Below are positions 45,232-63,508 of a stretch of DNA of 64,000 nt, piece after piece (positions within the stretch are counted from its first letter, which is position 1; every line of letters begins with the position of its first letter). The notes beneath the pieces are model-generated. The model searched no databases. It saw only the letters and a program-made list of their open reading frames with translations, and was not told the DNA's origin. This stretch comes from Affinundibacterium nitidum (GTDB lineage Bacteria > Pseudomonadota > Gammaproteobacteria > Burkholderiales > Burkholderiaceae_D), in NCBI RefSeq assembly GCF_014284155.1, contig NZ_JACOFZ010000002.1, forward strand, positions 344,711 to 408,710, read 5' to 3'. Both the position numbers and the translations under genes were made by a program.

Positions 45232-45260
45232 TTGCTTTTTCGGAGATGATCCTCTATACT
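45232..45260 (+). promoter_or_regulatory. Sigma-70 promoter of tRNA-Phe
   Basis: TTGCTT (-35, 45232-45237), a 17-nt spacer and TATACT (-10, 45255-45260) end 10 nt before the tRNA 5' end. This is a near-consensus promoter. Confidence 0.8.
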
Positions 45261-45270
45261 TCTTGGTCTT

Positions 45271-45346
45271 GGCCTGGTAGCTCAGTCGGTAGAGCAGAGG
45301 ATTGAAAATCCTTGTGTCGGTGGTTCGATTCCGCCCCGGGCCACCA
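45271..45346 (+). tRNA. tRNA-Phe (anticodon GAA)
   Basis: The 76-nt gene has acceptor arms GGCCTGG and CCGGGCC, D-arm TAGCTCAGTCGGTAGAGCA, anticodon loop with GAA, variable loop, T-arm GGTTCGATTCC and an encoded CCA end. Its last 17 nt form part of the left attachment site of the mobile element, and the gene stays intact after insertion. Confidence 0.97.
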
Positions 45347-45349
45347 AGA
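45330..45349 (+). repeat. Left attachment site (attL), 20-bp direct repeat
   Basis: The 20 bp TCCGCCCCGGGCCACCAAGA at the 3' end of tRNA-Phe recur exactly at 58790-58809. The next bases differ on both sides, which fixes the repeat ends. Confidence 0.92.
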
Positions 45350-45404
45350 TTTTAAGTTGTTGATCTGATTGAAGTTTATAGGCTTCAAAATATCAGGTGC
45401 TCCA

Positions 45405-45418
45405 AACAGGTGTTCCAC
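45405..45418 (+). repeat. Terminal inverted 14-mer, left copy
   Basis: The 14 bp AACAGGTGTTCCAC occur here inside the left end and, inverted, at 58716-58729 inside the right end. TCCAAACA also occurs at both ends (45401-45408 and 58707-58714). Position near both att sites suggests integrase arm-type binding sites (inference). Confidence 0.55.
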
Positions 45419-45438
45419 CTCACATTGAGGTGATACCG

Positions 45439-47052
45439 ATGAAATTAGCTTCACACCTACGCCGTTCTCGACACGGCGTTTTTTATTTCCGCATCGTTTT
45501 TCCACAAATTCTCGCTTCCCTTTTAGGACAGCCAGAACTCAATCGCTCCCTGCATACACGCTGCCCTAAAACAGCAAGGGTTACGGGCTACCAACTTTCT
45601 GGCACAATGCTACCATTAATATCCAAACTGGCACGCCTTATGACCATTGACCCAGACAGCATTGATCCAGCAAACATCAAAAAATTAATTGTTGAAGGTC
45701 TAACCATTGGTAAAGATGGCAGTTTTTCTGCTTCGCGCATTCAAACCAGTGACAATCCCCAAGTCGCTCAAGAGGAACTGAAAAACTTCGCCCTATTCCT
45801 GCATGCCAGCCGTGGGGAGCAACCCGCTACGCCACCAATTGAAGCCTTAAAGGTGGAAGCTCAGAAATTAAAAGCAGAAATTACCCAATTTGCTCCAGCT
45901 CTTCCAACCAAGCCAAGCACATTGAAAGATGCCTTTGATTCCTATTTGCTTTCCAAAAAAGGCATTGCTGCGGCTACGAAAAAATCCTACACAGAAAGCC
46001 TGGAATTATTTGGAATTCTGATGGGTGGCAATCATCGCATGGTGCATGAACTCACTCGGCGGGAATGCATGGACTTCAATGAGGCACTTTCGCATATTCC
46101 ACTGCATGCCAAAAAACGAAATATTAAAATCGGCACGGCATCTGAAATTTTGCTCAATCCACCAACCGTGCTCGATGCGAATGGCAACGACACTGCTCCT
46201 GACACTATTTCAGCTAGAACATGCAACGACCACTTAACCAATGTGTCTGGATTTTTTTCATGGGCGATTAAAGCTGGACGTTGTTTTGAACCAAATCCAT
46301 TTGAAGATTCAGTCCGCCACTCTGATGGCGAAATTGATGGTGGTGCCGAAGCGTTCCAGCAAGAAGAACTGATTAAGATTTTTGACAGTGCGAACTTCAT
46401 GAAGGCAAAACGACCACATCAGTTTTGGGGTCCTTTACTGCTCCTATTTACAGGTGCTCGTGCCAACGAAATTGCTTGTCTTGATCTGGACGACATCATT
46501 ATTGAAAATGGCATTCGCAGTATTTCAATTAAGCATCGCCCCAGAAAGAAGCCTGACTCAATTGAGCACAAGATAGAAACAAAGCGGCTCAAAAATGCAC
46601 AGTCGAAAAGAACCATACCGCTGCATCCAATATTATGGGAAATTGGCCTTGATGATTATCTCGCAGACTTGCGAATATTGGGTGCGACTCGACTTTTCCC
46701 AAATCTGCCCATGGATTCCAGAGAAAAACGAGAACGCAATTTATCTAGAGACGTAAATAATTATCTCGAAAAAATTGGTGTACATGTTCCACGCACTAAA
46801 GTTTTGCACAGCTTCCGTGACACGGTTGCTGACGCATTGGGTACGAGCGATCTTGATGCTGTTCGTGCTGACCAATGGACAGGTCACGCACCGGTCGGCA
46901 TTAAAGCGAAACACTACCGCAGTAAAGCGACTGCGGATGTCCAAGCAAGGGATGCATTCACGGCTTTAGATTTTCCATTCATTCATTTTGATACTTTGAG
47001 ATATCGAAAAGGCTGGTGGAATGAATGGCTAGTAAAAAATATGGTTCCTTAA
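45439..47052 (+). CDS. Tyrosine recombinase / phage-type integrase
   Basis: The 537-residue protein has an N-terminal arm-binding region, a SAM-like core-binding domain and a C-terminal catalytic domain. The catalytic residues are Arg341 (TGARANEI), His457 and Arg460 (HSFRD), His in WTGHAP and nucleophile Tyr493 (KHYRS). It is larger than lambda Int, as in many island integrases. The ATG at 45439 is preceded by GAGGTGA at 7 nt; an upstream GTG frame would run through attL-proximal repeats. It integrates and excises the element at tRNA-Phe. Confidence 0.93.
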   Translation: MKLASHLRRSRHGVFYFRIVFPQILASLLGQPELNRSLHTRCPKTARVTGYQLSGTMLPLISKLARLMTIDPDSIDPANIKKLIVEGLTIGKDGSFSASRIQTSDNPQVAQEELKNFALFLHASRGEQPATPPIEALKVEAQKLKAEITQFAPALPTKPSTLKDAFDSYLLSKKGIAAATKKSYTESLELFGILMGGNHRMVHELTRRECMDFNEALSHIPLHAKKRNIKIGTASEILLNPPTVLDANGNDTAPDTISARTCNDHLTNVSGFFSWAIKAGRCFEPNPFEDSVRHSDGEIDGGAEAFQQEELIKIFDSANFMKAKRPHQFWGPLLLLFTGARANEIACLDLDDIIIENGIRSISIKHRPRKKPDSIEHKIETKRLKNAQSKRTIPLHPILWEIGLDDYLADLRILGATRLFPNLPMDSREKRERNLSRDVNNYLEKIGVHVPRTKVLHSFRDTVADALGTSDLDAVRADQWTGHAPVGIKAKHYRSKATADVQARDAFTALDFPFIHFDTLRYRKGWWNEWLVKNMVP

Positions 47053-47098
47053 AATGATCTATCCATCAGAAATAGAACACTAATACCTTTACATTGCA

Positions 47099-47120
47099 GC
47101 TTACCGCCAAAGCGGTAAGC
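47099..47120. repeat. Element hairpin 1 (TTACCGC/GCGGTAA)
   Basis: A perfect 9-bp stem with loop CAAA lies between the integrase stop and the next gene. Two relatives, at 52255-52278 and 58623-58644, share the core TACCGC/GCGGTA. No T-tract follows this copy. Confidence 0.6.
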
Positions 47121-47135
47121 ACACTTAAATTTACT

Positions 47136-48314
47136 ATGACGCCACTAGAATTTTTACTCAAGCTCAAGCAATTGTCGCCAGATACCCAGCTCAGTATGGC
47201 GCACCTAGGTGCAACTTTCGAGATGCTGTCCCCAGTAGTGATACGGAAATCTTCTCCAAAGTCATCGACTTCACTATCGGCACGACTAACGAACGAAACA
47301 GCATTGGCAGATTGGTTAGGAGAACCAGTGGCAACTATTGAACAGTGGCGAATACAAGGCTCTCACCCTGCTTCCATAAAATATCATCTGGGTACTTTAT
47401 ACGAATGGATTATTTCCCATATCGTGCCTATGTTTGCTGCAACCGTCACTACGAATCAAATTTCTGATGTTCAATTTGGTGACATTGCCGAAATATGGAA
47501 AATGCAAATTCCTGTCATGAAGGTAGACGATCAATTTGTTGGATTTTTCAAGTCTGTAAAGGAGGAATGTGAGCCTTCACAGTATTCATTGGTCGAAATT
47601 CCTACCTTGTCATTTCACCCATCCGACATGACAAAAGAGACTATTTCAACAATCAATGAATCACTCATTGCACATGGCGATTTCAGCATTGCAGTTGCTG
47701 ACTCTATTATTGAAGCAAGAGGAATTTATGAGAAGTGGAAAGACGTTGCCATACCAGAAGTGCTGTTGCAATTTTTCAGGTCGGCACTTTTGCATAGTGA
47801 AGAATTAGCCAAAGATATCGCAGATGAACTAGAGCATGAACTAATTCGCAAGGGCTTCAATATCACACAATGGTTTTGGCAGCAGTTAGTAGAAAATGAC
47901 TTCTGCTCATTGAAAGAAAATGCGTTGATTTATGCCTTTGAGCTGACTGAGGAATACGGTGTCAATTTAAATCAGCTATGCCATATCTACGACGATCAAA
48001 GACAGGAATTATTTCACGGCAATAGTTCTCATCTGTTAGCAGATACCAAAGGCGAAATTTACCAGATCCGTCCTTATGAGCAATGCACCGTCAGCTATGG
48101 GTGTCTACTCACTTGCGTACTTGATTTGGGCCTCAGTGCTGACAAGCCAAATAATCATCAAATGACTGCACGACAAATTGCAAATGCCGTTGAAGAAAAA
48201 CACGGGCATGGTCAAAGCATATTCAAAAATCTCATTGAAAAATATGAACTTCAAGAAAAATTGAAAACTACTTTAGCACCGAAGAATTCCAAAACGAAAA
48301 AACAGCCTTTGTAG
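47136..48314 (+). CDS. Element protein of unknown function (392 aa)
   Basis: No family was recognised. Near the N-terminus, NETALADWLGEPVATIEQWR looks like a helix-turn-helix of the excisionase/MerR type (tentative). The rest is mostly helical without membrane segments, and the C-terminus is basic (KNSKTKKQPL). The ATG at 47136 lacks a strong SD; a TTG frame starting at 47094 would include the hairpin. Its last 47 nt overlap the 3' end of the convergent 48268-49140 gene. Codon use is AT-rich like the rest of the element. Confidence 0.5.
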   Translation: MTPLEFLLKLKQLSPDTQLSMAHLGATFEMLSPVVIRKSSPKSSTSLSARLTNETALADWLGEPVATIEQWRIQGSHPASIKYHLGTLYEWIISHIVPMFAATVTTNQISDVQFGDIAEIWKMQIPVMKVDDQFVGFFKSVKEECEPSQYSLVEIPTLSFHPSDMTKETISTINESLIAHGDFSIAVADSIIEARGIYEKWKDVAIPEVLLQFFRSALLHSEELAKDIADELEHELIRKGFNITQWFWQQLVENDFCSLKENALIYAFELTEEYGVNLNQLCHIYDDQRQELFHGNSSHLLADTKGEIYQIRPYEQCTVSYGCLLTCVLDLGLSADKPNNHQMTARQIANAVEEKHGHGQSIFKNLIEKYELQEKLKTTLAPKNSKTKKQPL

Positions 48315-49140
48315 AGTCTGGTAGATCGCTACTTTTTTCACTTTTTTGAATTTCCATGCGTTTTTCTGTCGGTTGATATATGTCAGAAAAAATTTTCGCT
48401 GCAAGGCTCGTCTGCCCCTGCATCAAGTAATGTCTTACCGCGAACGCGTGAACCAGAAAGCAAACATGTTCATAAATTCCATGTTTTTCTAAAACCTGCA
48501 CATAAGGCCCAGTCAATAAGCAATGTAATAAATATTCAGTCGCTTCCTCCCCTTCCCGCACTAACATGCTCAATCGCCAAATAGCGATCACTGCTGCCAA
48601 AAATCGCAATTCAGGCAACACCTGAAATTCATCCATATAGACTTGAACTGGATTATTCTTTTCAAACGAATAGGCTCGTTTAACGCGAATATCCGCCCAA
48701 GTATCCGTTGCACAGAAAATAGCTGCAATGCGATCAATCCGTCCATAATGCCCTTCCTCCCTATCTGTTGGTAATCGGGGAATGACATCTTCAATGATTG
48801 TCCAAAATTCGTCATAGCGATCCTGAAACAGCATCCAAAGCGATACGAATTCCCCTTTATCTTCAGGACCGAGTTCAAAGACGAAGCGTGATTTCTTTAC
48901 AGGCGCATAGGCATGAATAGCATTTCTAATCATTCCAGAAGGAAGATGGATACCTGATAAGTATCGTCCAAACCGAACTTCCAAATCTTGGATGGTTGGA
49001 ATGGACTTTAGTAACGCCTTATCACTCTCAACCTCAGTTCTACGCTTGAGATCATTTACCCAAGCGGCGGCTCGCATCGAATTAAAAACGGTCAATTTAC
49101 TATCTTTAGTGCTTTTTTTATCACTTTTTTTATCTGCCAT
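48268..49140 (-). CDS. Element protein of unknown function (290 aa)
   Basis: No family was recognised. The N-terminus is Lys/Ser-rich (MADKKSDKKSTKDSK). The middle contains a Trp-rich region (RLSMLVREGEEATEYLLHCLL and WMLFQDRYDEFWTIIEDV), suggesting an all-helical fold. It is divergent from the ParB-methyltransferase gene, and its 3' end overlaps the convergent 47136-48314 gene by 47 nt. A link to element maintenance or defence is possible but not shown. Confidence 0.5.
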   Translation of the reverse strand: MADKKSDKKSTKDSKLTVFNSMRAAAWVNDLKRRTEVESDKALLKSIPTIQDLEVRFGRYLSGIHLPSGMIRNAIHAYAPVKKSRFVFELGPEDKGEFVSLWMLFQDRYDEFWTIIEDVIPRLPTDREEGHYGRIDRIAAIFCATDTWADIRVKRAYSFEKNNPVQVYMDEFQVLPELRFLAAVIAIWRLSMLVREGEEATEYLLHCLLTGPYVQVLEKHGIYEHVCFLVHAFAVRHYLMQGQTSLAAKIFSDIYQPTEKRMEIQKSEKSSDLPDSTKAVFSFWNSSVLK

Positions 49141-49287
49141 TCCTTGGTCTCACACATTAAAAATGTCAAGGGGTGGCTGGAAAATGCAAAAATCCAGCCA
49201 ATTATTAAAAATTTCCGTAAATGTTTTAATCACACCATCGAATCAGCGCTGACGAGATATAAATTAAACCTAACTTACGGAGAATTT

Positions 49288-50538
49288 ATGAACACAATCA
49301 AAACCACAGTAATTCAACCTGCCATGAAAATCCATGAAGCAGCATATTTATTCCCAGAAATGACCACGGATGCTTTTTTGAAATTAAAAGAAGATATCCG
49401 CATCAATGGTCAGCAAGTGCCAATTATCGTACAAAACGGCTACTTGTTAGATGGTCGCGCTCGCTATCGTGCATGCCGAGAGTTAGGGATCACGCCAATT
49501 TTATGTGAGCTACCTGAAACAAATGAACCAATTGAGCGGCTTCTTAACAGTCTTAACTTTCACCGTCGCCATCTTGAAGAAGGACAACGAGCAATGATTG
49601 CAGCTCGTATGGCAAATTCATACATCGGTGGCAATCAATACACACCAGGTACAGTATCTCAAAAACAGGCTGCATTGGATTTGAAGGTATCCGTTGATTC
49701 ATTGCAACGGGCTAAATCGGTATTGAATCTTGGCTCAGCCGAATTAATTAAAGCTGTTGATGATGGTCAATTGAATGTCAGTAATGCTGCCGTCATTGCG
49801 ACATTGCCTGAACACGCTCAAAACAAAGTGCTTGAACTTTCAGAGAAGGAAATTTTGGAAAAAGCAAAAGCACTTCGCAAAGCAAAAACTGAAGCTCGTC
49901 GTTCTCAGATTTTGGAAGAAATCGAAGCAAAGCGGGCTAACAATAAACCACTTGATCCACGTGCAGGACCATATAACGTGATTTTGGCTGATCCACCATG
50001 GGATTACATGGGTGAGGTCGCAGTTGGATATCCAACGATGACTTTGGAAGATATTTGTGCGATGCCTGTCAATGACATTGCAGCCGAAGATGCCGTTTTG
50101 TTTTTGTGGTGCTCTGCATCCCTAATTCGTGAAGCATTGGCAGTGATTGATGCATGGGGATTTACCTATAAGACCCAATCCATTTGGGACAAAATGTCCG
50201 CTGGGCAAGGCTGTTATGTGCGAGTGCAGCATGAAATTTTATTAATTGCGACTCGCGGTAAATTGCCAGAAGTACCTCCAACCGCACGACCAGGATCAGT
50301 ATTTACATTCCGTCGTCGTGAGCACAGTCGTAAACCTGATTATTGCTACGAGATGATTGAGAGTATGTACCCTGAATTATCAAACAAAATTGAATTATTT
50401 TGTCGCGGAATTCCACGAAAAAACTGGAATGGCTTCGGCAATGAATGCATCACTGACGATCAAGTTTTAAGCCCAATAATGCAAATGATTAATGCTGAAA
50501 ATGACGATGTCTATTTTTCAGAAGAACAAGCAGCATAA
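49288..50538 (+). CDS. ParB-like / MT-A70 adenine methyltransferase fusion
   Basis: The 416-residue protein has an N-terminal ParB/Srx-like domain (PVPIIVQNGYLLDGRARYRACRE-like motif near residue 35-65), a helix-turn-helix middle (QKQAALDLKVSVDSLQRAKSV) and a C-terminal MT-A70 N6-adenine methyltransferase with DPPW at residues 235-238. The fusion suggests a DNA-binding module that guides adenine methylation. GGAGA lies 6 nt before the ATG; a longer upstream frame was rejected. Similar fusions occur on phages and integrative elements. Confidence 0.85.
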   Translation: MNTIKTTVIQPAMKIHEAAYLFPEMTTDAFLKLKEDIRINGQQVPIIVQNGYLLDGRARYRACRELGITPILCELPETNEPIERLLNSLNFHRRHLEEGQRAMIAARMANSYIGGNQYTPGTVSQKQAALDLKVSVDSLQRAKSVLNLGSAELIKAVDDGQLNVSNAAVIATLPEHAQNKVLELSEKEILEKAKALRKAKTEARRSQILEEIEAKRANNKPLDPRAGPYNVILADPPWDYMGEVAVGYPTMTLEDICAMPVNDIAAEDAVLFLWCSASLIREALAVIDAWGFTYKTQSIWDKMSAGQGCYVRVQHEILLIATRGKLPEVPPTARPGSVFTFRRREHSRKPDYCYEMIESMYPELSNKIELFCRGIPRKNWNGFGNECITDDQVLSPIMQMINAENDDVYFSEEQAA

Positions 50539-50569
50539 ACAATTATTCAAAATAACTTAGGAGAAAAAA

Positions 50570-50860
50570 ATGAATACAGCAGAATTTATTGAAGCACAAA
50601 TTATTCCAAGTATTACCACGAAATTTTTAGCCAAAATTGCAGACGATGCATTTTCAAATGCTTATGATTCGTTTGATGATACGATGAACTTTTCAGATTT
50701 AATGGAATTGTTTACCAACAATATTAACCAATTTATTTCAGAGCAAGTACTAATCTCAGCATTTGGTTTCAGTGAGGAAGAAATGGAAGAATTTTTCGGC
50801 TCCTCCGGTGGAGTACCTTATGCCATCGACGACTTAATTGATGAAATCAATTGCGAGTGA
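50570..50860 (+). CDS. Small, very acidic protein of unknown function
   Basis: The 96-residue protein has 20 Asp/Glu, two Lys and no Arg. A strong TTAGGAGAA site is followed by the ATG. It is 31 nt after the methyltransferase gene, and a terminator closes the pair at 50909-50939. The extreme negative charge resembles DNA-mimic proteins such as anti-restriction proteins, but sequence alone does not prove this. Confidence 0.65.
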   Translation: MNTAEFIEAQIIPSITTKFLAKIADDAFSNAYDSFDDTMNFSDLMELFTNNINQFISEQVLISAFGFSEEEMEEFFGSSGGVPYAIDDLIDEINCE

Positions 50861-50908
50861 TTTTTCAAAAAGAGTGGCATCTGATTAAATGAAATGTGAG
50901 TCAAAAAT

Positions 50909-50939
50909 AAAATGGTCAATCGCTGGGTTGGCCATTTTT
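50909..50939 (+). terminator. Terminator of the methyltransferase-acidic protein unit
   Basis: An 11-bp stem (50909-50919 with 50928-50938) with one G-T pair and an 8-nt loop precedes further T. Short frames that run across it (50889-51172) are therefore unlikely genes. The 50940-51134 stretch shows nothing else recognisable. Confidence 0.8.
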
Positions 50940-51134
50940 CATTTCACTTCTCATTTTTATTATCTTTCTATTCCGTTTTATTCCGGTACCGCATTACATT
51001 GTTTGGTAGCCCACGGGCTATTCTCTATATTTGCTGGTTGCGGATGTTTCCTATGGTTCGATGCGCTCTGGCGGGTCAAGCTATCTGTGCTAATTACCTG
51101 ATGGTAGGGCGTAACGGTCAACGAAAATTTTTAA

Positions 51135-52094
51135 TTAACACAGTTGTGGAAAATATTTGCGGACAGTCTTGATATTCATTCCTGTATGCTCTACCAACCT
51201 TGAAATACTGATCTTAGAGTGCCCCATCATCTGCAAGTCATTTTTTGCTTTTTGTAAGGTTTCTAGCGATTTTTTTACACGAATAGCATTTGTGTATTCA
51301 GCTCCCAAACTCATGCGCTGTGTGGCTGTTTCATCGGTAAATTTGAGCACTTTGGGCGTATGGTTGCCTAACTGATGACGGTATCGCCAAACCCCACGGG
51401 AAACCGATTTTGCGGTGCTTTTAATTTCAGACATGGGCAACGGCTTATCAAATAAACTGTTGATTTCCATTGCTTCAGCAAATACCTCCATATCCCAGCG
51501 ATCACCATCTGCAAATTTATGTACTGCAATATATGCCCATAAACGCAAGGTATGGAATAACTCATCATTACGACCTTTGATCATTAAATTATCAGGTAGT
51601 TTGCGAACTGTTCCCCTTTTAGGAAGGTCAATATATTCTAAAAAATCGGATAGGTCATAGCTAGTCGGAAATGTTTGCACACGCCAGCGATCGCTTAATG
51701 GATTCTTGGTAATCGTATGATTGTAGGCGGTATCGGCTCGAAGGCAATTTTCCATTTCTTTTTGAATAGCTTCAAAATAATCCTGAGGACCGGTACGGCT
51801 ATTGTTATGGTATGCCACGGGCGTTTTTAAGTGGTACAGATAATGGCAATGAGCATTCGTCGGATTAATTGTAATAATGGTTGGTGTCGGCAAATTCAAG
51901 TCGTCAAAGCGATATGCTGAACCAGGAATATCCAAGTCGAAGCTAAGGTACCGCTTATACATTTGATTCAGTCCGCAATAGGAAAACTGATCAACTTTTT
52001 CGCGCTTGCGAAATTTGATACCTTCCGAAAAATCATTGGTAGTCATGACTGCTTCATTGAGGTGAGAATAAAAATCTTCTAGTTGTTGGCTCAT
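51135..52094 (-). CDS. RepA-like replication initiation protein
   Basis: The 319-residue protein matches the plasmid replicase pattern: DLDIPGSAYRFDDLNLPTPTIITINP, AHCHYLYHLKTPVAYHNNS, then NPLSDRWRV. A PriCT-like region (about residues 185-240) and a C-terminal helix-turn-helix (ISISRLVEHTGMNIKTVRKYF) follow. Initiators of this class start replication on small plasmids and integrative elements after excision. No strong SD precedes the ATG. Its promoter (52160-52188) carries a palindrome. Confidence 0.8.
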   Translation of the reverse strand: MSQQLEDFYSHLNEAVMTTNDFSEGIKFRKREKVDQFSYCGLNQMYKRYLSFDLDIPGSAYRFDDLNLPTPTIITINPTNAHCHYLYHLKTPVAYHNNSRTGPQDYFEAIQKEMENCLRADTAYNHTITKNPLSDRWRVQTFPTSYDLSDFLEYIDLPKRGTVRKLPDNLMIKGRNDELFHTLRLWAYIAVHKFADGDRWDMEVFAEAMEINSLFDKPLPMSEIKSTAKSVSRGVWRYRHQLGNHTPKVLKFTDETATQRMSLGAEYTNAIRVKKSLETLQKAKNDLQMMGHSKISISRLVEHTGMNIKTVRKYFPQLC

Positions 52095-52159
52095 CCGTTC
52101 TTTTTGTTGTTGTTACTACCAACAAACAAAATTCGGAGGGACAAGTCAAGTCTATTCTC

Positions 52160-52188
52160 TACATAATCAGAAATATATTTCTGATCAA
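52160..52188 (-). promoter_or_regulatory. Promoter and operator of the rep gene
   Basis: On the minus strand TTGATC (52188-52183), a 17-nt spacer and TATGTA (52165-52160) form a promoter. A perfect 20-bp palindrome (52166-52185, centre AATATATT) fills the spacer and overlaps the -35 box. This arrangement predicts repression of rep by a dimeric binder, possibly Rep itself. Confidence 0.65.
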
Positions 52189-52254
52189 TTTAATGCTATT
52201 TTTAAGCCTATTTTTTGTACGATTTTCGACTCATTTTTTATGAGGAAAATGTAT

Positions 52255-52284
52255 TGCCTACCGCTGGTGCGGTAGGCATTTTTT
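52255..52284 (+). terminator. Plus-strand terminator antisense to the rep leader (element hairpin 2)
   Basis: A perfect 10-bp stem (52255-52264 with 52269-52278), loop TGGT and six T. No plus-strand gene ends here. A short transcript starting in 52095-52250 would end here and be antisense to sequence upstream of rep. It shares its core with hairpins 1 and 3. 52285-52447 holds only a doubtful minus-strand frame. Confidence 0.7.
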
Positions 52285-52447
52285 ATACGCTTGATGCGTT
52301 TGTGCATGTCCACGTTGTGCCATTAAAATCAAATTCGTATAAATCGCCCCCCCTTTCACAATCCCGCGCATATTTCCAAATTTGATTTGGATTAGTCCGA
52401 CCAAAGCCAGACGGTCAGTATCAGTGCTGTCAGTAACATCACTCACT

Positions 52448-54886
52448 TCAAAAATGGCGCCAAGAAAATATTTCATTAATTGGCTTCGGTTTTCCGATGT
52501 AATAACCCTGCGCAAAGTCTACGCCTATATCCTCCAATAGCTTTAAAATATTCTCATTTTCGACAAACTCAGCTATGGTAAATTTCCCGGTCAAATGCGC
52601 AATTTCATTGATACTACGCACCATCGCACAATCAACTGCGTCGTTTGCCATATCCTTCACAAACTGTCCGTCAATCTTTAAATAGTCAACCCTTAAGTGT
52701 TTAAGATAAGCCATAGAAGACATGCCGCTGCCAAAATCATCGAGAGAAATTCGTGCACTACGCTCATGTAACATTGCAATAAATTCAGTTGCAATGCCCA
52801 TGTTCCCAATAGCAGCGGTTTCGGTAATTTCAAAGGAAATTTTATGTGCGGGAATCTGATCGCGATCAAGTGCCTCAACCAAAAATTGATGGAAATTTCG
52901 GTCACCAACGGATTTACCAGATAGGTTGATAGCAATCGTATGTATATTATCGAGCGCATCTGCGTGCATTTTCAGCCACTCAAAAACACTATTCACCACC
53001 CACCGATCAACTTGCGGTGCCAATCCAAATCGCTCAGCGGACGGTATAAATACACCAGGCGGTATCAATGTGCCATCCGTTTCCCGCATGCGCAGCAAAA
53101 CTTCAAAATGCAGCCCATTTTCAACAAACTCACCAAGTGGCATGATGGGTTGTGCAAAAAGTTCAAAGCGATTTTCGTCAATTGCCTGGGGTAAACGCGT
53201 TGCCCATTGCATCTGATCACGTTGTTCCATCACTGTTTTATCTAAGTCCACATAAATGTGCACACGACCTCGGCCCTCATCTTTTGCTGCGAAGCATGCG
53301 CCGTCGGCGGCCTGCTGTGCGTCCTGAGCACTTTCCCATCGCCCGTCTAAGGGTACGACACCAATGCTGGCGCCAACACGAAAAAAATTGCTGCCGTGTT
53401 GAAACCGAATTTGCGCCACCTTGTCACAAACTTGTTGAGAGATTCGATGAGCCGCTTTCAAATCACAGCCTTCAAGCAAAATAGCGAATTCGTCTCCGCC
53501 TAATCTTGCCACAACATCTTTGGACCGTACTGTTTTAACGAGCAAGGCGGACACCTCTTTGAGCAAAGCATCTCCGGCAGAATGGCCGCAACTGTCGTTG
53601 ACAATTTTAAATTGATCCAGATCGATACAACATAGTGCATGTGAAACACCTGTCGAAATCGAAGATTCAAACATCTCAAGCAACACACGATCAAATTCAG
53701 CACGATTCGCAAGCCCAGTTAAATGATCGTGACTCGCTCGACGTTCAACTTCTTGCCGAAGGATTCGTTGACCAGTAACATCTCGAAAAACCATAACGAC
53801 ACCGGTAATTACATCACCGGTCGAAAAAATCGGCGCAGCAGAATCTTCCACCGCGTATTCATTACCGTCTTTACTGATCAACACGGTATCACGCGCCAAA
53901 CCAACGATTGCACGCTCCTCTAAACAATGCGCGATTGGATTCTTAGCGGTCAGTCGTGTATGTTGATTGACGATGTTAAAAACCGTAGTGACAGGCAGGC
54001 CGATCGCGTCAACCAACTTCCAACCTGTCAACTGTTCTGCAATGGGGTTGAGGTATTCAACTTCTTCGCGTTCATTCGTAGTAATGACCGCATCACCAAT
54101 AGAGTTGAGCGTCACACGGGTTCGCTCAAATTCATTTGACAACGTGAGTTCCAAGGCTTTTCGTTCTGTAATATCTTTAATATAGCCATGCCAAAGTGTA
54201 CTTCCATCAGAACGCGATTCCGGTGTCGCATTCCCTTCCAGCCAGCGAAGTCCCTTTTTTGGCAATATCACACGATATTCTTGATGCCAAACAGTGAGGT
54301 TTTTCGCAGACTCAGTAATTCCTAGATTAATTGATTCCAGATCGTCTGGGTGTAAGCGCTTGAACGCCAGGTTCGCGTCTTTTTGTAGTTGCAACGGGCT
54401 TAATTCGTACACGTCGCGCACGCCTTCGCTCGCGTAGGGGAAGCGTGAACTGCCATCAGCACATAGCAGAAATTGATAAATCGCACCCGGCACTTGTTCG
54501 GTTGCTTTTTTCACTCTAAACAATTCGTCTTCAAGGCTTTGACGTTCATTCATGCGAATGACGACACATTCAATAACAGCACCTCCCTCAATTTCTCGTC
54601 GCACAGCATTAAAAATGACAGGTAACGTTTTCCCATTCGCGCCAGTGAGAACAATAGCAATCTCTTCAACGTGACCATGGACATGCAACAAGGTCATCAC
54701 TTGCATGTGAAACACTAAACGATAGGCTGATGTCAGCAACGCATCTAATCTTTTCCCGTTTAACTCTTCCACGGAAAAATCAAGCATGGTCGCCAAAGTC
54801 TGATTCGCGACGACGAGCTCCAAGTTGCTATTAACGATAAATAAACCGCACGGTGCGTTCTGAAAATTAAATCTTGAAATATCCAT
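52448..54886 (-). CDS. PAS-PAS-PAS-GGDEF-EAL c-di-GMP signalling protein
   Basis: The 812-residue cytoplasmic protein has no membrane segment. PAS1 (residues about 1-125: FNFQNAPCGLFIVNSNLELVVAN..., LLTSAYRLVFHMQVMTLL, LPVIFNAVRR) resembles PAS domains paired with RsbQ. PAS2 (about 130-240) and PAS3 (about 250-375) follow. GGDEF (near 462) has an intact GGDEF motif. The EAL domain has EVL (near 593), EITET, DDFGSG (near 716), LKIDG and EFVEN, so both cyclase and phosphodiesterase sites look intact. The start lies 20 nt after the RsbQ-like stop. Confidence 0.9.
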   Translation of the reverse strand: MDISRFNFQNAPCGLFIVNSNLELVVANQTLATMLDFSVEELNGKRLDALLTSAYRLVFHMQVMTLLHVHGHVEEIAIVLTGANGKTLPVIFNAVRREIEGGAVIECVVIRMNERQSLEDELFRVKKATEQVPGAIYQFLLCADGSSRFPYASEGVRDVYELSPLQLQKDANLAFKRLHPDDLESINLGITESAKNLTVWHQEYRVILPKKGLRWLEGNATPESRSDGSTLWHGYIKDITERKALELTLSNEFERTRVTLNSIGDAVITTNEREEVEYLNPIAEQLTGWKLVDAIGLPVTTVFNIVNQHTRLTAKNPIAHCLEERAIVGLARDTVLISKDGNEYAVEDSAAPIFSTGDVITGVVMVFRDVTGQRILRQEVERRASHDHLTGLANRAEFDRVLLEMFESSISTGVSHALCCIDLDQFKIVNDSCGHSAGDALLKEVSALLVKTVRSKDVVARLGGDEFAILLEGCDLKAAHRISQQVCDKVAQIRFQHGSNFFRVGASIGVVPLDGRWESAQDAQQAADGACFAAKDEGRGRVHIYVDLDKTVMEQRDQMQWATRLPQAIDENRFELFAQPIMPLGEFVENGLHFEVLLRMRETDGTLIPPGVFIPSAERFGLAPQVDRWVVNSVFEWLKMHADALDNIHTIAINLSGKSVGDRNFHQFLVEALDRDQIPAHKISFEITETAAIGNMGIATEFIAMLHERSARISLDDFGSGMSSMAYLKHLRVDYLKIDGQFVKDMANDAVDCAMVRSINEIAHLTGKFTIAEFVENENILKLLEDIGVDFAQGYYIGKPKPINEIFSWRHF

Positions 54887-54906
54887 TTAATTTATTCGCA
54901 AGATTA

Positions 54907-55704
54907 CTAGCTAGAAAGGTAATTCTTCATCAGCGCGATTGTTTCCTCTGGGTGGCTCATGTGTGGACAGTGCCCTGTGGCCTTCATCTGTTGCAAAACA
55001 CTATTTTGCAAGTGTTGATGTAAATACTCCCCAACGACAAGTGGGGCAACTGAATCTTCTTGGCATTGAAGGAGCAAACATGGTTTATCAAAATCGACGA
55101 GGTCAAGTCGATTGTCCGCCAAAAAAGTGGCTTCTGCAAAACGCTTTGCGATCGGTGGGTCCATTGCACAAAAACTCGCTTCTAGCTCTTGCGCCAAGGC
55201 AGGCTGATCAGGGTTTTTTGCGACGACACCAGCGAGATAACTCGCCCAACCTGGTTGGTTGCGCGAAATCATGTCGAGTAAGCCTTCTATATCCGCACGC
55301 TCAAAGCCACCGACGTAATCGGGGGCGTCGTTCAAGTATCGCGCAGATGGACAAATCATGACTAACTTCGAGATCCGATCTGGGATATCGCGTGCTGCAA
55401 GCAAGCAAATCATGCTACTGACTGAATGCCCAACCAAGATCGCGTCATGAAGATCAAGTGCTTCGCACAGGTCAACGACATCTTTGGCATATCCCGCTAA
55501 ACTTGAATAAAGCTCTGGATCATAAGCATCAAGATCAGACATGCCAGCGCCGACATAGTCAAACAGGACGACATTAAAGTCTTTCTCAAAGGCCGGACTA
55601 ACTTTACGCCACATCTCCTGATCGCAACCATAGCCGTGCGCAAAAACAATGGCTTGTGATCCAGAACCACTGATTTTGACGTTACATTTTTTAATTATAT
55701 CCAT
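54907..55704 (-). CDS. RsbQ-like alpha/beta hydrolase
   Basis: The 265-residue protein aligns along its length with Bacillus RsbQ: FAHGYGCDQ, LFDYVGAGMSD, GHSVSSMI, SHPEETI and SFCAMDPPIA. The triad Ser94-Asp217-His245 sits two positions before the known RsbQ triad 96-219-247. RsbQ-like hydrolases, related to plant D14/KAI2, make or bind a small hydrophobic signal sensed by a partner PAS domain. AGGAAA precedes the ATG at 55704; a longer upstream frame lacks an SD. It forms a two-gene operon with the PAS-GGDEF-EAL gene. Confidence 0.92.
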   Translation of the reverse strand: MDIIKKCNVKISGSGSQAIVFAHGYGCDQEMWRKVSPAFEKDFNVVLFDYVGAGMSDLDAYDPELYSSLAGYAKDVVDLCEALDLHDAILVGHSVSSMICLLAARDIPDRISKLVMICPSARYLNDAPDYVGGFERADIEGLLDMISRNQPGWASYLAGVVAKNPDQPALAQELEASFCAMDPPIAKRFAEATFLADNRLDLVDFDKPCLLLQCQEDSVAPLVVGEYLHQHLQNSVLQQMKATGHCPHMSHPEETIALMKNYLSS

Positions 55705-55790
55705 CGCGTTTCCTATGTATTTAATAAACTTTGTCAGACGCTTGAGTTGAATTTGATGCTCGGCCATTTATCGTACATGAATTCAACAAA

Positions 55791-55815
55791 ATTTCGGTCT
55801 TTTTATGACCGAAAT
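55791..55815. promoter_or_regulatory. Inverted repeat upstream of the RsbQ-like gene
   Basis: A perfect 9-bp inverted repeat, ATTTCGGTC-N7-GACCGAAAT, lies 87-111 nt upstream of the ATG. It may be an operator, or a weak terminator on the minus strand (a short T-run follows there). No sure -35/-10 pair was found nearby. Confidence 0.5.
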
Positions 55816-56114
55816 CCGTAGTTGGCAGTATTATTCTAACAACATCAGTAGCGTTTGCCTCCCCCAACCTGTTGATTTGCATTTAAAACTGCCCTCCTCG
55901 TAGACACTTGTACCACTTAATATGTAAGAACTCATTAAATTGAATCCGCCAATACTTAACTGAACAAAATATTGTTGTTAATATTTTAATTATTGCACTT
56001 GCACTTGCACTTTTTCTGCCACTCCACCATTACCAATCCCATCTGACTTTTCAATGACATAGCTTTTAACGATATTGCATTTCCGCTAAACCATGACACT
56101 CACAAAAGTGCAGA
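55816..56114. other. Intergenic region after the relaxase gene
   Basis: This 299-nt stretch holds an AT-rich hairpin AAAATATT-GTTGTT-AATATTTT (55966-55987), usable as a minus-strand terminator after the relaxase gene, and three tandem GCACTT units near 55995-56012. No gene or RNA was recognised. Confidence 0.5.
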
Positions 56115-57494
56115 TCAAATTTTTGGTTTGTGACAAAAATCTCGTGGCTGTGCATCTTGAGCATCCTTCGCTTTTTCCATCTGCATCCTATAATTCAAAA
56201 CCTCCATTTGGTGCTGCAACTTAACGATCTGCGCATGAAGTATTTCGTAGTAGGCGGCATTGGTTGTGGTTTGGGCTCTTATCATCAATTTGGACACCAA
56301 ATTGGCGAGATTACCGATTTCCATTTCTATGCCGAAAACCATGGCGTTGCTAACCGGATTGACCGTTGGAATATGAGAGTCTTCATTGACGGATGGCGTT
56401 GACGTTTCCACATTGAATTTAGATAGCTGGTGCGTGGAAACTTCCGTGCCTGTTTCGGCTGAAGTAGCAGCTACAACGCTTAAAATCTTGGTATCCGCTG
56501 GGCAAATCTGTACCTGCTGTATCTCTGGCTGTATTCGCTTGAGTGGTGGTTTCACATTACCGCCACTTGCTTTGTGCGCCTTTCCACGATTGCTCAAGGT
56601 ACGTTTGAAAGTTGTTTTCTTCTTGTATCGCTTGGCAAAATATGCCGCCCTCTCAAAAGTCAACTTTTCTAAGGTGGTCTTGGCCTGCGTGTATTCTTCG
56701 GTGGTCAGCTTTTGCGGTTGTTTAGATTTTTGGTGCTGTTTGACCAATTCCTGGTAATCAGCATCCGCTTGAAACAATGGCCCCTTGAGTCTTTTGGCTT
56801 TGCTGCTGCCAGGCAGTTTAATGGAAATATAATCCTTGCCGATGCGAGTGACTTCGCCATAGTTGCCTTCCAAATGTGTGATGAGTTCATCACGGTTGGC
56901 AATCCTGCCACTTACGATATGGCTGTGCAGCTCACTAGACAAAATGCGTTTAACTCGTCTGGATTTCTTACCAGCATCAGTCTTAGCTTCAAATTCATTA
57001 AGTGCAATTTTAAGTGGATCGGGTGTAACTTGGTCATAGCCCAAAGCCTGATTCATGACCTGCGTGAATGCCTGAAAGTGTGCAATATTGCGTTTTCCTG
57101 GTGGATGAATATTGAGCTGTCTGCCAGACTGAATTTCGGTGCCTGCTACAACGAAATGCAATTCGAGATTGGATTTATCTCGGTGAGCGATCCAAGCATC
57201 TGCATAATTATCGTCCTCCTTCAATCCGGGTAAGAAGCTAGCCTTGAAAGCAGCCATGATGTTTTTTATCTGACCTTCGCTAGGGTGCTCATTGTCACGG
57301 AAGCTGATTGCACCACTAACGTATTTTTGTTTTCTATCCGTGCTATTGCAGACTAGCTGAAAAAGACTTGGGGAACCGTGGAGCCACTCTGGAGCTACCG
57401 CTCTGAGCTTGCCAGTGTGATCATTTTTGCCCATTAGGTAATTGATGGCGGATTTGGCATTGCCCGTGCCGGTATTAAACACACGTACCATCAT
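56115..57494 (-). CDS. Relaxase / mobilization nuclease
   Basis: The 459-residue protein starts MMVRVFNTGTGNAKSAINYLMG, typical of small mobilization relaxases. The His-rich metal-site region is HRDKSNLELHFVVAG. A Lys-rich linker and a C-terminal helical segment (MQMEKAKDAQDAQ) follow. It nicks oriT and stays bound to the 5' end during transfer; the exact MOB family is uncertain. Its start overlaps the mobC stop (ATGA), so the two are translated together. Confidence 0.82.
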   Translation of the reverse strand: MMVRVFNTGTGNAKSAINYLMGKNDHTGKLRAVAPEWLHGSPSLFQLVCNSTDRKQKYVSGAISFRDNEHPSEGQIKNIMAAFKASFLPGLKEDDNYADAWIAHRDKSNLELHFVVAGTEIQSGRQLNIHPPGKRNIAHFQAFTQVMNQALGYDQVTPDPLKIALNEFEAKTDAGKKSRRVKRILSSELHSHIVSGRIANRDELITHLEGNYGEVTRIGKDYISIKLPGSSKAKRLKGPLFQADADYQELVKQHQKSKQPQKLTTEEYTQAKTTLEKLTFERAAYFAKRYKKKTTFKRTLSNRGKAHKASGGNVKPPLKRIQPEIQQVQICPADTKILSVVAATSAETGTEVSTHQLSKFNVETSTPSVNEDSHIPTVNPVSNAMVFGIEMEIGNLANLVSKLMIRAQTTTNAAYYEILHAQIVKLQHQMEVLNYRMQMEKAKDAQDAQPRDFCHKPKI

Positions 57495-57892
57495 GATTGC
57501 ACCTGTGCACGGAGAGTGTTCTGGAATTGCTGATCCATGGCAGCGAGTCTAACCTCCACTTTGCAAAGTTCTTCTAACATGGCCATTGAAACATCATCGT
57601 CACGATTCAAGGCTCTCGCTATCTGATTGACGTTGTTGCCGATACGGGCTATTTCGGCAATGACTGCCTTGCTTGTATCTCGCTGTTGGCGATAATGCTC
57701 TATAGCAGCATTGCCACCATAGATGAGTTTGTTTCTGGCGTATTGGGCTAATGAATTGCCTTCAGCAAGTAGGGCTTGTGATACGAGTCCGTTGTATTCA
57801 CTAGGAGATAAACGGATCTCGAAGCGCATGGTGCGCAAATCTTGGTTTTGTTCTATGCCAGTTTGACCAGCTTTTTTCTTCTTTTGTGTCAT
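57491..57892 (-). CDS. MobC-like mobilization protein
   Basis: The 133-residue protein has a ribbon-helix-helix-like start (MRFEIRLSPSEYNGLVSQAL) and the MobC pattern VIAEIARIGNNVNQIARALN. MobC binds near oriT and helps the relaxase open the strands. AGGAGGT lies 5 nt before the ATG. The candidate oriT is just upstream. Confidence 0.82.
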   Translation of the reverse strand: MTQKKKKAGQTGIEQNQDLRTMRFEIRLSPSEYNGLVSQALLAEGNSLAQYARNKLIYGGNAAIEHYRQQRDTSKAVIAEIARIGNNVNQIARALNRDDDVSMAMLEELCKVEVRLAAMDQQFQNTLRAQVQS

Positions 57893-57989
57893 GATAACCT
57901 CCTGTTATTTTTATTGTGTTTGAGGCTCAACCTCATTCCTTTCTCTTATTTACTGCTATTTGATTTCAGCCGTAGTGTGCAAGGTTCAC

Positions 57990-58060
57990 TCACGGGGGCT
58001 GGGGAAACACCCCAGATAATTCAATAAACCGGCAAGCAAATTTTTTGCGACGGGTTATTG
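57990..58060. other. Candidate origin of transfer (oriT)
   Basis: Upstream of mobC this region has a perfect hairpin (CTGGGG/CCCCAG, 57999-58004 with 58010-58015) and a long imperfect inverted repeat (58023-58040 with 58041-58059: AATAAACCGG... and ...CGGGTTATT). Such repeats next to mobC usually mark oriT. The nick site cannot be named from sequence. Confidence 0.5.
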
Positions 58061-58102
58061 ATTGACCTTGCTGTGTACCTCTTCACACATCATGGGTCTT
58101 GG

Positions 58103-58429
58103 TTATCTCTTAGGCTTTCGCGGTTGATTTGTTGCCGAACCAGTTGAGCCATGACTGCCAGAATCCGCGCCTAGAAATTTCTGACGTAACTCACGCACCA
58201 ATATTTGAGTACGTTCTTTTGAAGGCACTCGAATTCCGTGGATATACCAATGGCACTGTTCTGGATCGGGTGAGCAAATGGCTGGTCCGTTCTCACGGTG
58301 TAATTGACCATCGTAAAAATAGTAGCTTGTGCCATCGGATGTTTCCAAGGCTGGCCCATCTTCACAATGAAGCTGGCCGTCGGTGATTGAAATAGTTGTC
58401 CCGTCTGAGAACTGTAGTTTTTCTTGCAT
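58103..58429 (-). CDS. Small element protein with HREDGPA-like repeats
   Basis: The 108-residue protein has two or three repeats of the form DGQLH(C/R)E(D/N)GPA, as found in phage and MORN-like hypothetical proteins, and a basic, Pro-rich C-terminus (NQPRKPKR). Function is unknown. GGAGGAAAT precedes the ATG at 58429; a longer frame upstream has no ribosome-binding site. It is the last gene before attR. Confidence 0.6.
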   Translation of the reverse strand: MQEKLQFSDGTTISITDGQLHCEDGPALETSDGTSYYFYDGQLHRENGPAICSPDPEQCHWYIHGIRVPSKERTQILVRELRQKFLGADSGSHGSTGSATNQPRKPKR

Positions 58430-58622
58430 ATTGATTTCCTCCTGTAGATATGTAGACAAACCTAATGGATTAAATTCAAATTGCAAGGCCTTCAGAGGGA
58501 TGAAATACGTTATGCGGTATCCGACGGTAGAATTAGGATTTGGAACACTAAAGTCACAACTTTTTGATACGTATATGCTGTTCAATTTTCCTTAAAATTC
58601 AACCCCGAATTTGTGAAGATGT

Positions 58623-58644
58623 GGCTACCGCTAGTGCGGCAGCC
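58623..58644. repeat. Element hairpin 3 (CTACCGC/GCGGCAG)
   Basis: Stem GGCTACCGC/GCGGCAGCC with one mismatch and loop TAGT, near the right end of the element. It is related to hairpins at 47099-47120 and 52255-52278. Confidence 0.5.
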
Positions 58645-58715
58645 TGTTTCATTTTATTAGTGCTGGCATTAAATCTTAAACAGCGTCAAAATGTGGCATT
58701 AAGTGTTCCAAACAA

Positions 58716-58729
58716 GTGGAACACCTGTT
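58716..58729 (-). repeat. Terminal inverted 14-mer, right copy
   Basis: GTGGAACACCTGTT is the exact reverse complement of the left-end 14-mer at 45405-45418. It sits 61 nt inside attR. A further inverted pair (AAACACCT/AGGTGTTT) lies between it and attR. Confidence 0.55.
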
Positions 58730-58789
58730 GGTAGCGTTTTTGTGATAAACACCTATATAAATCAATGACTTAGGTGTTTTGGTAGCCAG

Positions 58790-58809
58790 TCCGCCCCGGG
58801 CCACCAAGA
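58790..58809 (+). repeat. Right attachment site (attR), 20-bp direct repeat
   Basis: This copy is identical to 45330-45349 and carries only the last 17 nt of tRNA-Phe plus three more. It marks the right boundary of the element. Confidence 0.92.
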
Positions 58810-58814
58810 ACATC

Positions 58815-58850
58815 AAGGGTTAGAGCCGTAGTAGGCACTAACCCTTTTTT
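58815..58850 (+). terminator. Displaced terminator of tRNA-Phe
   Basis: Stem AAGGGTTAG/CTAACCCTT (58815-58823 with 58838-58846) followed by T. It directly follows attR, where the original tRNA terminator would be if the element had pushed it away from the tRNA (inference). 58851-59098 shows no gene. Confidence 0.75.
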
Positions 58851-59098
58851 GTTTTTGGTGCTTTGGTAGGCTGTTGGTAGGCCGCTATTTGATATTGATT
58901 TGCTCTGAGTTTCTTTAATTCAGATAAATTTCTGCTGCAAACATGCTCCCGCTTTTCACAATATATCCCCTACGAGCCGATCAAGCACCTTCCGAAAAAA
59001 ATAAGCAAGTGCAATTGGCCTGACGTCACTTGACACAAACTTTAAGCGATTTTGAACGAGTTACTAAACTGATAGTGAAGAATTCTCCACTGTCTCGA

Positions 59099-59734
59099 TT
59101 AACCAGCTGATTGATGAACTTGCGGCTCGTACCCAGCGCTAATCGTGCCAACGACAGACTTTGGGGTAAGGACATCAACGACCAAGGTATCTGAAAGGAT
59201 ATTAAATCGTTCTACATATCCTGTCCCAGACCAATCGAAAAATTTACTTTTCCATTTAAGTACAGCGATCCCGTCAATTAAGACGAAAACACCATCTGGA
59301 AGTTCACCTAATATTGCCTGGTAAGTGACTTTTGTTCCATCGCGCTGGGTGCGCTCCGCGTGCATTTGCTGGTCTATTTTTCCAATGCCAATACCATTTG
59401 CATCAGCTGCTTCAGTCGATGGGGCGTTCGCCATTTGCCATCGAAGTTTGAATTCTTTAAAGCGTTCACGACGACAGTCACCACATGGCCGATGCCCTGC
59501 CGATAACGCTGTCGCCTCATCCAAAAAAAACAATTCTGAATAATTGCCCTTACTAAAAATCTCGCGTCGTATGCCTTGATACTGCAATGAACAGGTCACC
59601 CATGCTTTATGGCGCCACTTCTTGACGATTCTTTTCTCATCGTCGTGCAGTATGCCGCGATTACCTAAAAACTCACCACGCATGTTTAACGCCTGCAACT
59701 CTCCCAAAGGGGTAACACGGTTTTGTAATGTCAT
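59099..59734 (-). CDS. Protein of unknown function with CxxC motif
   Basis: No family was recognised for this 211-residue soluble protein. LSAGHRPCGDCRRERFKEF, with His and a CxxC pair, looks like a small zinc site, recalling the metal-binding part of Ada-type proteins (weak similarity). The N-terminal passage NMRGEFLGNRGILHDDEKRIV is another distinct block. No SD is obvious. It lies between attR and the phosphatase unit. Confidence 0.55.
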   Translation of the reverse strand: MTLQNRVTPLGELQALNMRGEFLGNRGILHDDEKRIVKKWRHKAWVTCSLQYQGIRREIFSKGNYSELFFLDEATALSAGHRPCGDCRRERFKEFKLRWQMANAPSTEAADANGIGIGKIDQQMHAERTQRDGTKVTYQAILGELPDGVFVLIDGIAVLKWKSKFFDWSGTGYVERFNILSDTLVVDVLTPKSVVGTISAGYEPQVHQSAG

Positions 59735-59994
59735 TTGGTCTGTTCGATAAAGGAAAGGTTGCGACTGCGATTATTTTACGACAATAGAGATCGTACTTAC
59801 CCGCTCCAATGAGATAAATGCTCTCATGCTTCACAAGAATTAAATACGGGTCGACGGTACAGACTACACTCAATTCTTTCTCAGACCGCCCACGATACAG
59901 ATGTAATGCGACAAATATTGTCGCGACTTTGGTGCAGAATCATAAACGTACTCACAATATTAGATATGCCAATTTCTCACTGAAAGGAAATTAT

Positions 59995-60264
59995 ATGGAA
60001 AACGGTTGGGTGCCAGTAAATCAAGTCAAAATACAACCTGTCAGCAAATTTCCCGCCAAGGTATCGGACGAAACTATCGATTTTTTAGAGGAGCTTCTTA
60101 GCGAGTCGAAGTCTGGAAAGCTAGTCGGCCTCGCCACAGTTGCACTCTCGCTCGACGGTAAATTCAGTCTAAATTTGCGCGGAGAAGCTCGCATTGAGGG
60201 CAATCAAATGAGTGTTGCTGGTATGCTTGCAGCATTGCAGAAAATCGTTTTGGAGAATCACTAA
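59995..60264 (+). CDS. Small protein of unknown function beside a phosphatase
   Basis: The 89-residue protein has no recognised family. It contains VSDETIDFLEELLSESKSGK and a short beta-rich segment (GLATVALSLDGKFSLNLRGE). AAAGGAA precedes the ATG at 59995, which is why the longer upstream frame was rejected. The phosphatase gene starts 4 nt after its stop, so the two form a coupled unit. Confidence 0.65.
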   Translation: MENGWVPVNQVKIQPVSKFPAKVSDETIDFLEELLSESKSGKLVGLATVALSLDGKFSLNLRGEARIEGNQMSVAGMLAALQKIVLENH

Positions 60265-60268
60265 GAAT

Positions 60269-61330: not shown

Positions 61331-61373
61331 TGTACATTTTATACAGTGCAATGCCTCATGCGATTCACGGGCA

Positions 61374-63488: not shown

Positions 63489-63508
63489 AGAGTTTCCCTA
63501 GCAAACGC

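Follow-up and report, generated by a model that had tools for sequence, protein, structure and literature searches.

In the stretch of Affinundibacterium nitidum DNA analysed here (64,000 nucleotides of contig NZ_JACOFZ010000002.1, hereafter the window), the gene of an RsbQ-type hydrolase lies next to that of a PAS-PAS-PAS-GGDEF-EAL protein, and both sit in a predicted integrative mobilizable element at a tRNA-Phe gene. We read the two genes as an RsbQ-PAS module with cyclic di-GMP (c-di-GMP) output which is cargo of this element and belongs to a branch whose hydrolase-PAS contact has probably been re-specified, and we give this reading a probability of roughly 0.58. The pairing and the general mechanism are already known from the module described in 2011, diguanylate-cyclase outputs included. 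Novel here are the changed residues of the branch on both partners and the carriage by an integrative mobilizable element. The signal sensed by RsbQ and its dialogue with the PAS domain were open in 2011, and the available text of a paper from 2025 gives a predicted model only (PMC12143880). A natural branch in which both partners carry changes in or close to the presumed interface, with the genes still paired, makes a direct test of specificity possible.

Both genes lie on the minus strand. The hydrolase gene (265 amino acids, 54907..55704) stops 20 nt ahead of the second gene (812 amino acids, 52448..54886), and an in-frame ATG further upstream would lengthen its open reading frame to 55767. 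A search of the PDB aligned residues 3-264 of the hydrolase with Bacillus subtilis RsbQ (1wom, E 6e-95), followed by Olei00960 (2e-78) and then by a KAI2 protein (3e-55); RsbQ thus stands ahead of every KAI2/D14 receptor among the matches listed. The catalytic triad S94-D217-H245 is present, and Q150, G159 and A180 are typical of the branch. The spacing of the two genes, the triad and the intact key motifs of the GGDEF and EAL domains had all been given in the preliminary description, and each was confirmed. Counts of sites resembling promoters or terminators around the pair did not exceed those in shuffled sequence.

The second protein begins with PAS1, the PAS domain linked to RsbQ (residues 1-124, 54515..54886), and continues with a second PAS domain matched by PAS_3 (residues 151-229, 54200..54436), a third one (residues 255-371, 53774..54124; Pfam PAS 255-370, PAS_9 265-371), a GGDEF domain (residues 384-540, 53267..53737; Pfam 1.4e-36) and an EAL domain (residues 564-800, 52487..53197; Pfam 4e-61). 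Scanned alone against Pfam, PAS1 gave a PAS_9 match at 1.2e-9, and phmmer found no match to it in the PDB with an E-value of 10 or less. An AlphaFold2 model of PAS1, built from a ten-sequence alignment, is a confident PAS fold with a predicted local distance difference test score (pLDDT) of 87.3. Foldseek placed the PAS domains of PpsR and EcDOS first and FixL close behind, a likeness between predicted and known structures that is no demonstration of heme binding. No conclusions were drawn from the model of the full-length protein, which had a mean pLDDT of 65.5 and fell below 50 over residues 115-264 (linker and second PAS domain).

The catalytic motifs of the two output domains can be read in the window protein: RLGGDEF and the RxxD site RSKD in the GGDEF domain, and FEVLLRM, AINLSG, EITET, DDFGSG, DYLKIDG, AEFVEN and AQG in the EAL domain. 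With both sets intact, the protein is likely to be bifunctional, and RsbQ may control either its synthesis or its breakdown activity. Across the branch, which comprises 13 pairs with that of the window, the GGDEF motif is intact in every member and the RxxD site in 12. Seven members have altered EAL motifs (L013, L014, L015, L085-L088), where for example DNFGGG or DDVGRG replaces DDFGSG; the motifs are unchanged in the proteins of the window, Janthinobacterium, Undibacterium (two) and Colwellia (two).

The module itself was described by Nadezhdin et al. (2011), who listed 45 pairs of RsbQ with an RsbP-type PAS domain and with a PPM phosphatase, a histidine kinase or a diguanylate cyclase as output; an EAL domain was present in three of the cyclases (PMC3183031). 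In Bacillus, contact between RsbQ and the PAS domain was demonstrated, and the substitutions F55A and Y59A eliminated signalling and weakened the interaction with RsbQ, as judged by two-hybrid and pull-down assays for F55A and by a plate two-hybrid assay for Y59A (PMC3183031). Two models stood side by side at that time: the hydrolase hands a product to the PAS domain, or it acts as the sensor itself. As of 2011, no experiment in Bacillus supported a ligand derived from the hydrolase, according to the text available (PMC3183031). The predicted model of 2025, made with AlphaFold2, places RsbQ between the PAS domains and their linkers, and the paper again connects the module with kinases and cyclases (PMC12143880). 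In the literature available, searches for RsbQ together with c-di-GMP returned nothing past Nadezhdin et al. (2011) except a passing mention, and those for RsbQ, PAS domain and diguanylate cyclase added only the paper of 2025. The word 'mobile' does not occur in the main text of the 2011 paper as available (PMC3183031).

We surveyed 147 RsbQ loci, made up of the window, the loci of an initial search, the better-scoring matches of further searches and 11 of 74 plasmid records. No two loci had identical RsbQ DNA, and the profile for PAS1 was built only on the first set examined (81 loci). A PAS1-like domain was encoded directly downstream of RsbQ at 133 loci, window included (72/81 in the profile-building set, 30/35 and 31/31 in the others). 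None of seven other alpha/beta-hydrolase loci tested in the same genome had such a neighbour (27 others were found). Conversely, a branch-type PAS1 (E up to 1e-20) occurred in nine of 285 family genomes, and RsbQ adjoined it in all nine. The pairing of RsbQ with PAS is therefore far above chance. Natural RsbQ-PAS fusion proteins, which would have served as Rosetta evidence, were absent from the 72 paired loci of the first set. The outputs outside the branch in this set were mainly histidine kinases, then GGDEF (7) and GGDEF-EAL (3); they were assigned from matches to motifs, with Pfam used for nine of the proteins. Ser94 and Asp217 were found in 133/133 paired homologues and His245 in 132, which leaves the triad complete in 13/13 branch members and in 119 of the 120 other linked RsbQ proteins. 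Within the family, RsbQ is frequent (100 of 295 genomes, E up to 1e-50); it is rarer more widely (E up to 1e-45), with 3/369 genomes in a sample of the class and 20/398 in one of the phylum, the window genome being counted in each.

The best reading is that the hydrolase probably feeds PAS1 and so sets the level of c-di-GMP. RsbQ with its intact triad would bind or turn over a small molecule and act on PAS1 of the GGDEF-EAL protein, presumably a dimer. The signal would then run through the PAS1 linker and the two further PAS domains and alter how far synthesis or breakdown of c-di-GMP prevails. As in the RsbQ-RsbP system of B. subtilis, RsbQ is encoded directly upstream, the linked PAS is the first domain and the triad is kept. 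The window pair differs in its GGDEF-EAL output, which replaces the PPM phosphatase, in its two extra PAS domains and in its integrative mobilizable carrier. Plant KAI2/D14 receptors are homologous to nearly the whole hydrolase, but the match is weaker (E 3e-55 at best) and RsbQ is far closer (6e-95). The partners of KAI2 and D14 are other proteins. A parallel in output is A1SX34 of Psychromonas ingrahamii (RsbQ-PAS-PAS-GGDEF-EAL), likened here by its described architecture only, in which a cyclase and a phosphodiesterase are likewise reached via a further PAS domain (PMC3183031).

The preliminary description had assigned PAS1 to the kind of PAS domain found with RsbQ. Linkage and the residues C13, R56, E75 and P89 agree with this, whereas the F-alpha residues typical of the class are missing. 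We mapped nine published RsbP-PAS residues from the text of the 2011 paper, ungapped through F-alpha. Window PAS1 keeps C13, L51, R56, E75 and P89, equivalent to C10, L48, Q53 (here the basic Arg), E72 and P86 of RsbP, and has changed the equivalents of F55, T58, Y59 and P62; its F-alpha helix (residues 53-70) is atypical, with V58, M61, Q62 and T65. The branch repeats this pattern. The equivalents of C10, Q53 (as Arg or Lys), E72 and P86 are kept in 13/13 members, that of L48 is Leu or Trp and that of L13 is Phe in 12/13. F55 is replaced by Met, Gln, Glu, Gly or Val, T58 by Met, Leu or Ile, Y59 by Gln or Arg and, in 11/13 members, P62 by Thr, Ala or Ser, the Pro being kept in the other two. 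Phe or Tyr at position 55 is found in 107 of the 120 other linked PAS domains vs none of the branch; position 59 is aromatic or His, with Pro at position 62 as well, in 111/120 vs 0/13.

The hydrolase has changed as well. Residue 150 is Gln in 13/13 branch members and in none of the 120 other RsbQ proteins, residue 159 is Gly, Val or Ser throughout the branch and Pro in 117/120 others, and residue 180 is Ala in 13/13 vs 4/120. From the general anatomy of RsbQ and KAI2, we take these three positions to lie in the lid. An RsbQ 63% identical to that of the window, from a metagenome-assembled genome (MAG) of Ardenticatenales (Chloroflexota; L016), has a kinase output, a canonical F-alpha and canonical RsbQ residues 111, 150 and 159. 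These comparisons indicate that the changes in RsbQ are peculiar to the branch, as is its loss of F55 and P62. With F-alpha and several RsbQ positions altered, it is probable that the branch has re-specified how the hydrolase contacts PAS1.

Several of these observations also weigh against such a reading. F55 and Y59, which influence RsbQ binding in B. subtilis, are not kept in window PAS1, so that the Bacillus contact is not simply transferable to the window pair, and their loss could also mean that the contact with RsbQ is gone. In addition, among the 72 pairs of the first set, Gln or Arg at position 59 occurs in 16/16 PAS-GGDEF-EAL pairs, namely the 13 of the branch and L099, L103 and L116, vs 1/56 others (L154, a kinase), a pattern that was noticed post hoc and to which L099 and L103 contribute as close kin. 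The three pairs outside the branch, whose EAL domains were confirmed, have Gln59 together with canonical F55, P62 and RsbQ Tyr or Phe at 150. The change at 59 may thus belong to GGDEF-EAL outputs, with the PAS helix tuned to the type of output. Covariation between the two proteins, measured over 102 pairs (effective number 74) by mutual information with average-product correction, was discarded as an independent line of evidence, F-alpha supplying 11 of the top 100 site pairs vs 10.6 expected. RsbQ 150 with PAS 58, a site pair picked after the branch difference had been seen, ranked 28th (z 4.1), and the independent-pairs test gave it a median p of 1 with six usable pairs, at most two of them informative. 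The joint change on both partners is, in essence, one event.

It is conceivable, if rather improbable in our view, that the contact has been lost or loosened in the branch. The RsbQ product would then diffuse to PAS1, or the PAS1 input would be unused and the other two PAS domains would drive the output, and the F-alpha change would follow the GGDEF-EAL output. The substitution of F55 and Y59 throughout the branch, residues whose replacement by Ala is null in Bacillus, speaks for this, as do the tie between position 59 and output type and the presence of two further PAS domains between PAS1 and the output. It is countered by the retention of C13, R56, E75, P89 and most of the linker, by the intact triad and by the finding that RsbQ adjoins PAS1 in every case found. 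Moreover, RsbQ 150 and 159, otherwise nearly fixed, are changed in precisely this branch, which suggests adjustment rather than release.

A re-specified contact might have a further consequence. Two Colwellia genomes hold the branch pair and, on another contig, a second pair that is canonical on both sides and whose RsbQ is 45% identical; the coexistence of both types suggests insulated partner specificity. On this idea, RsbQ (Y150 to Q, P159 to G, V or S, R or S180 to A) and the PAS1 F-alpha would have been re-specified jointly, letting the pair enter genomes that own another RsbQ-PAS pair without cross-talk. We consider this speculative and unlikely, its odds being lowered because three GGDEF-EAL pairs whose RsbQ is canonical likewise have Gln at PAS 59.

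We turn to the carrier. A tRNA-Phe gene with anticodon GAA (45271..45346, plus strand) is the integration target, and its 3' end is repeated twice, as an exact copy of 20 bp at 58790-58809 and as a copy of 51 bp (98%) located ~73 kb downstream, beyond the window. The left attachment repeat (20 bp, 45330..45349, plus strand, overlapping 45297-45347, the stretch that the 51-bp copy repeats) and the exact right one (58790..58809, plus strand), which marks the right end of the element, enclose ~13.46 kb. Next to the tRNA gene lies an integrase gene (45397..47052, plus strand) with a DUF6538 N-terminus and a Pfam Phage_integrase match under the cut-off (E 3e-5). It is followed by two backbone genes without assigned function, orf406 (47094..48314, plus strand), which occurs in sister elements and is split by an insertion in L078, and orf290 (48268..49140, minus strand). 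The remaining backbone consists of an MT-A70 methyltransferase gene (49144..50538, plus strand), whose product is possibly self-protective or regulatory, and a replicase/primase gene with Replicase and PriCT_1 domains (51135..52094, minus strand). Beyond the pair lie genes for a MobA-type relaxase (56115..57494, minus strand; NCBIfam MbeA-like E 1e-26 and Pfam Relaxase E 4e-5, both under curated cut-offs) and for a MobC/NikA-like accessory mobilization protein (57491..57892, minus strand). Mating-pair genes were absent from the eight open reading frames scanned besides the pair, that at 58103-58585 included. An integrase beside a tRNA gene, attachment repeats and a relaxase, without a transfer apparatus, identify the region as a predicted integrative mobilizable element.

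The element was compared with other genomes. In another species of the genus (G266), a sister element (L078) occupies the same tRNA gene, with integrase, methyltransferase and replicase 92%, 93% and 91% identical. Its DNA matches window 45252-52375 at 84-86% and the right end 58608-58810 at 85%, closing on a 22-bp copy of the attachment repeat. The segment in between (52376..58607 in the window), which holds the pair and mobA/mobC, is exchangeable: L078 has genes for an AlwI-type restriction enzyme, a D12-class methyltransferase, an ArdA-like protein and a MobA/MobL relaxase in its place, and an 86-bp stretch, window 52374-52459, is found inverted near its right end. Likeness to a third element (L079 in G144; integrase 94%, orf406 73% identical) ends at 52375 too. 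The common break of L078 and L079 (window 52293-52375) adjoins the 3' end of the pair and looks like a shared point of cargo exchange. A further genome (G032, L077) has a partial related integrase and orf406 only. In G695 (L095), the left flank is 81% identical over 5.4 kb through the tRNA gene and, 97 bp past the repeat, runs into sequence which, in the window genome, lies ~76 kb downstream of that gene, a junction that we read as an unoccupied site; 2.8 kb separate the 51-bp repeat from this point of continuation. A 721-bp region around the tRNA gene was matched in 44/44 genomes of the genus searched, some matches being short or partial.

The phylogeny of the pair points to horizontal spread. 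In a midpoint-rooted tree of the 13 concatenated branch pairs, the window pair groups with that of Janthinobacterium lividum PAMC 25724 (support 91/94) and then with two from Colwellia (100/99), and the two other pairs of its own genus fall apart from it. An RsbQ tree with five distant sequences gave the same groups (95/90, 82/89). Forcing the three genus pairs together was rejected (approximately unbiased test, p 1e-9), as was a grouping of the genus pairs with Janthinobacterium but without Colwellia (p 3e-5), which was named after the tree had been seen. The DNA match to Janthinobacterium covers 52460-55704 at 78%, which takes in the two genes and hardly anything else: it begins at the start codon of RsbQ and stops 12 nt short of where the second gene ends. 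In the family of Colwellia, RsbQ is present in 41/196 genomes and the branch type only in the centre genome (75% identical; next 51%). A complete hydrolase-sensor-c-di-GMP switch can thus move between genera, and here it sits where a sister element at the same tRNA has restriction-modification genes. Mobile cargo of a related kind is reported from a genomic island of Vibrio alginolyticus that carries a diguanylate cyclase, the abstract naming no RsbQ-type hydrolase (PMC10672970). The Janthinobacterium pair, the closest relative, is preceded at a distance of about 300 bp by a short gene (L009, 9385-9705) matching the N-terminal domain of resolvases.

Boundaries, cargo swap, unoccupied site and phylogeny together bear out the proposal of the preliminary description that the module is cargo of a mobilizable element. 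The nameable flanks of five homologous pairs, however, consist of chromosomal genes and count against a generally mobile module: they are metK-ahcY-metF (L087), recG-queA-tgt (L013), an ABC ATPase gene (L083), the gene of a TIGR00366 protein (L011) and, in L010, genes for a chromate-efflux transporter and a regulator of Lrp type; by eye, the neighbours of L087 recur at two further loci, L085 and L088. In L010, an Undibacterium MAG, the transporter gene (13243-14595) lies immediately downstream of the pair.

These flanks, and the failure to find any other gene of the window element in the DNA analysed for 12 loci of the initial search or for nine further loci around RsbQ, would fit a chromosomal signalling operon that was captured once by an island, in which case 'mobile module' would be an overstatement. 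We regard a single capture as doubtful, as the tree of the pair conflicts with the classification of its hosts (Janthinobacterium, Colwellia) and the sister element shows that the segment is replaceable. RsbQ homologues are moreover present on 74 plasmid records, all less than 60% identical to that of the window, and 39 of these are typed as conjugative or mobilizable. At 10 of 11 plasmid loci examined, a PAS1-like domain was found next to RsbQ; eight loci had an annotated kinase, phosphatase or cyclase as neighbour, among them one diguanylate cyclase on a mobilizable plasmid, and a ninth an 'ATP-binding protein'. The GGDEF-EAL matches on plasmids (3 of 92 records) had no annotated neighbouring alpha/beta hydrolase in a gene table that is incomplete. 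Phages were rejected as carriers, the only two records being 24.7% identical, annotated as enol-lactonase and not the module. That the hydrolase is a metabolic enzyme merely sharing an operon with a c-di-GMP protein is highly improbable: no ligand is known and the wider fold family has many general hydrolases, all of which matched the window hydrolase under the cut-off, but RsbQ is the best PDB match, the pairing is specific and RsbQ acts on RsbP in Bacillus.

Some further features of the site were observed. A GC-rich hairpin (CTACCGC ... GCGGTAG/GCGGCAG) occurs at 52255-52278, near the cargo breakpoint, at ~58623-58644, near the right end, and again at the right end of L078; it is perhaps a terminator or a recombination site. 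The tRNA-Phe gene resembles an integration hotspot, five genomes of the genus (G210, G248, G277, G199, G260) having a further copy of 48-61 bp of its 3' end ~13-42 kb away on the same contig. In the window genome, a second and larger island at the same tRNA-Phe directly follows the element, taking in window 58810-64000 and reaching to about base 121457, counted from the window start, with the 51-bp tRNA copy near its far side. This island has a BrxL gene (61374-63488; PADLOC, Pfam) and more large genes beyond the window, and is perhaps a bacteriophage exclusion (BREX) defence island.

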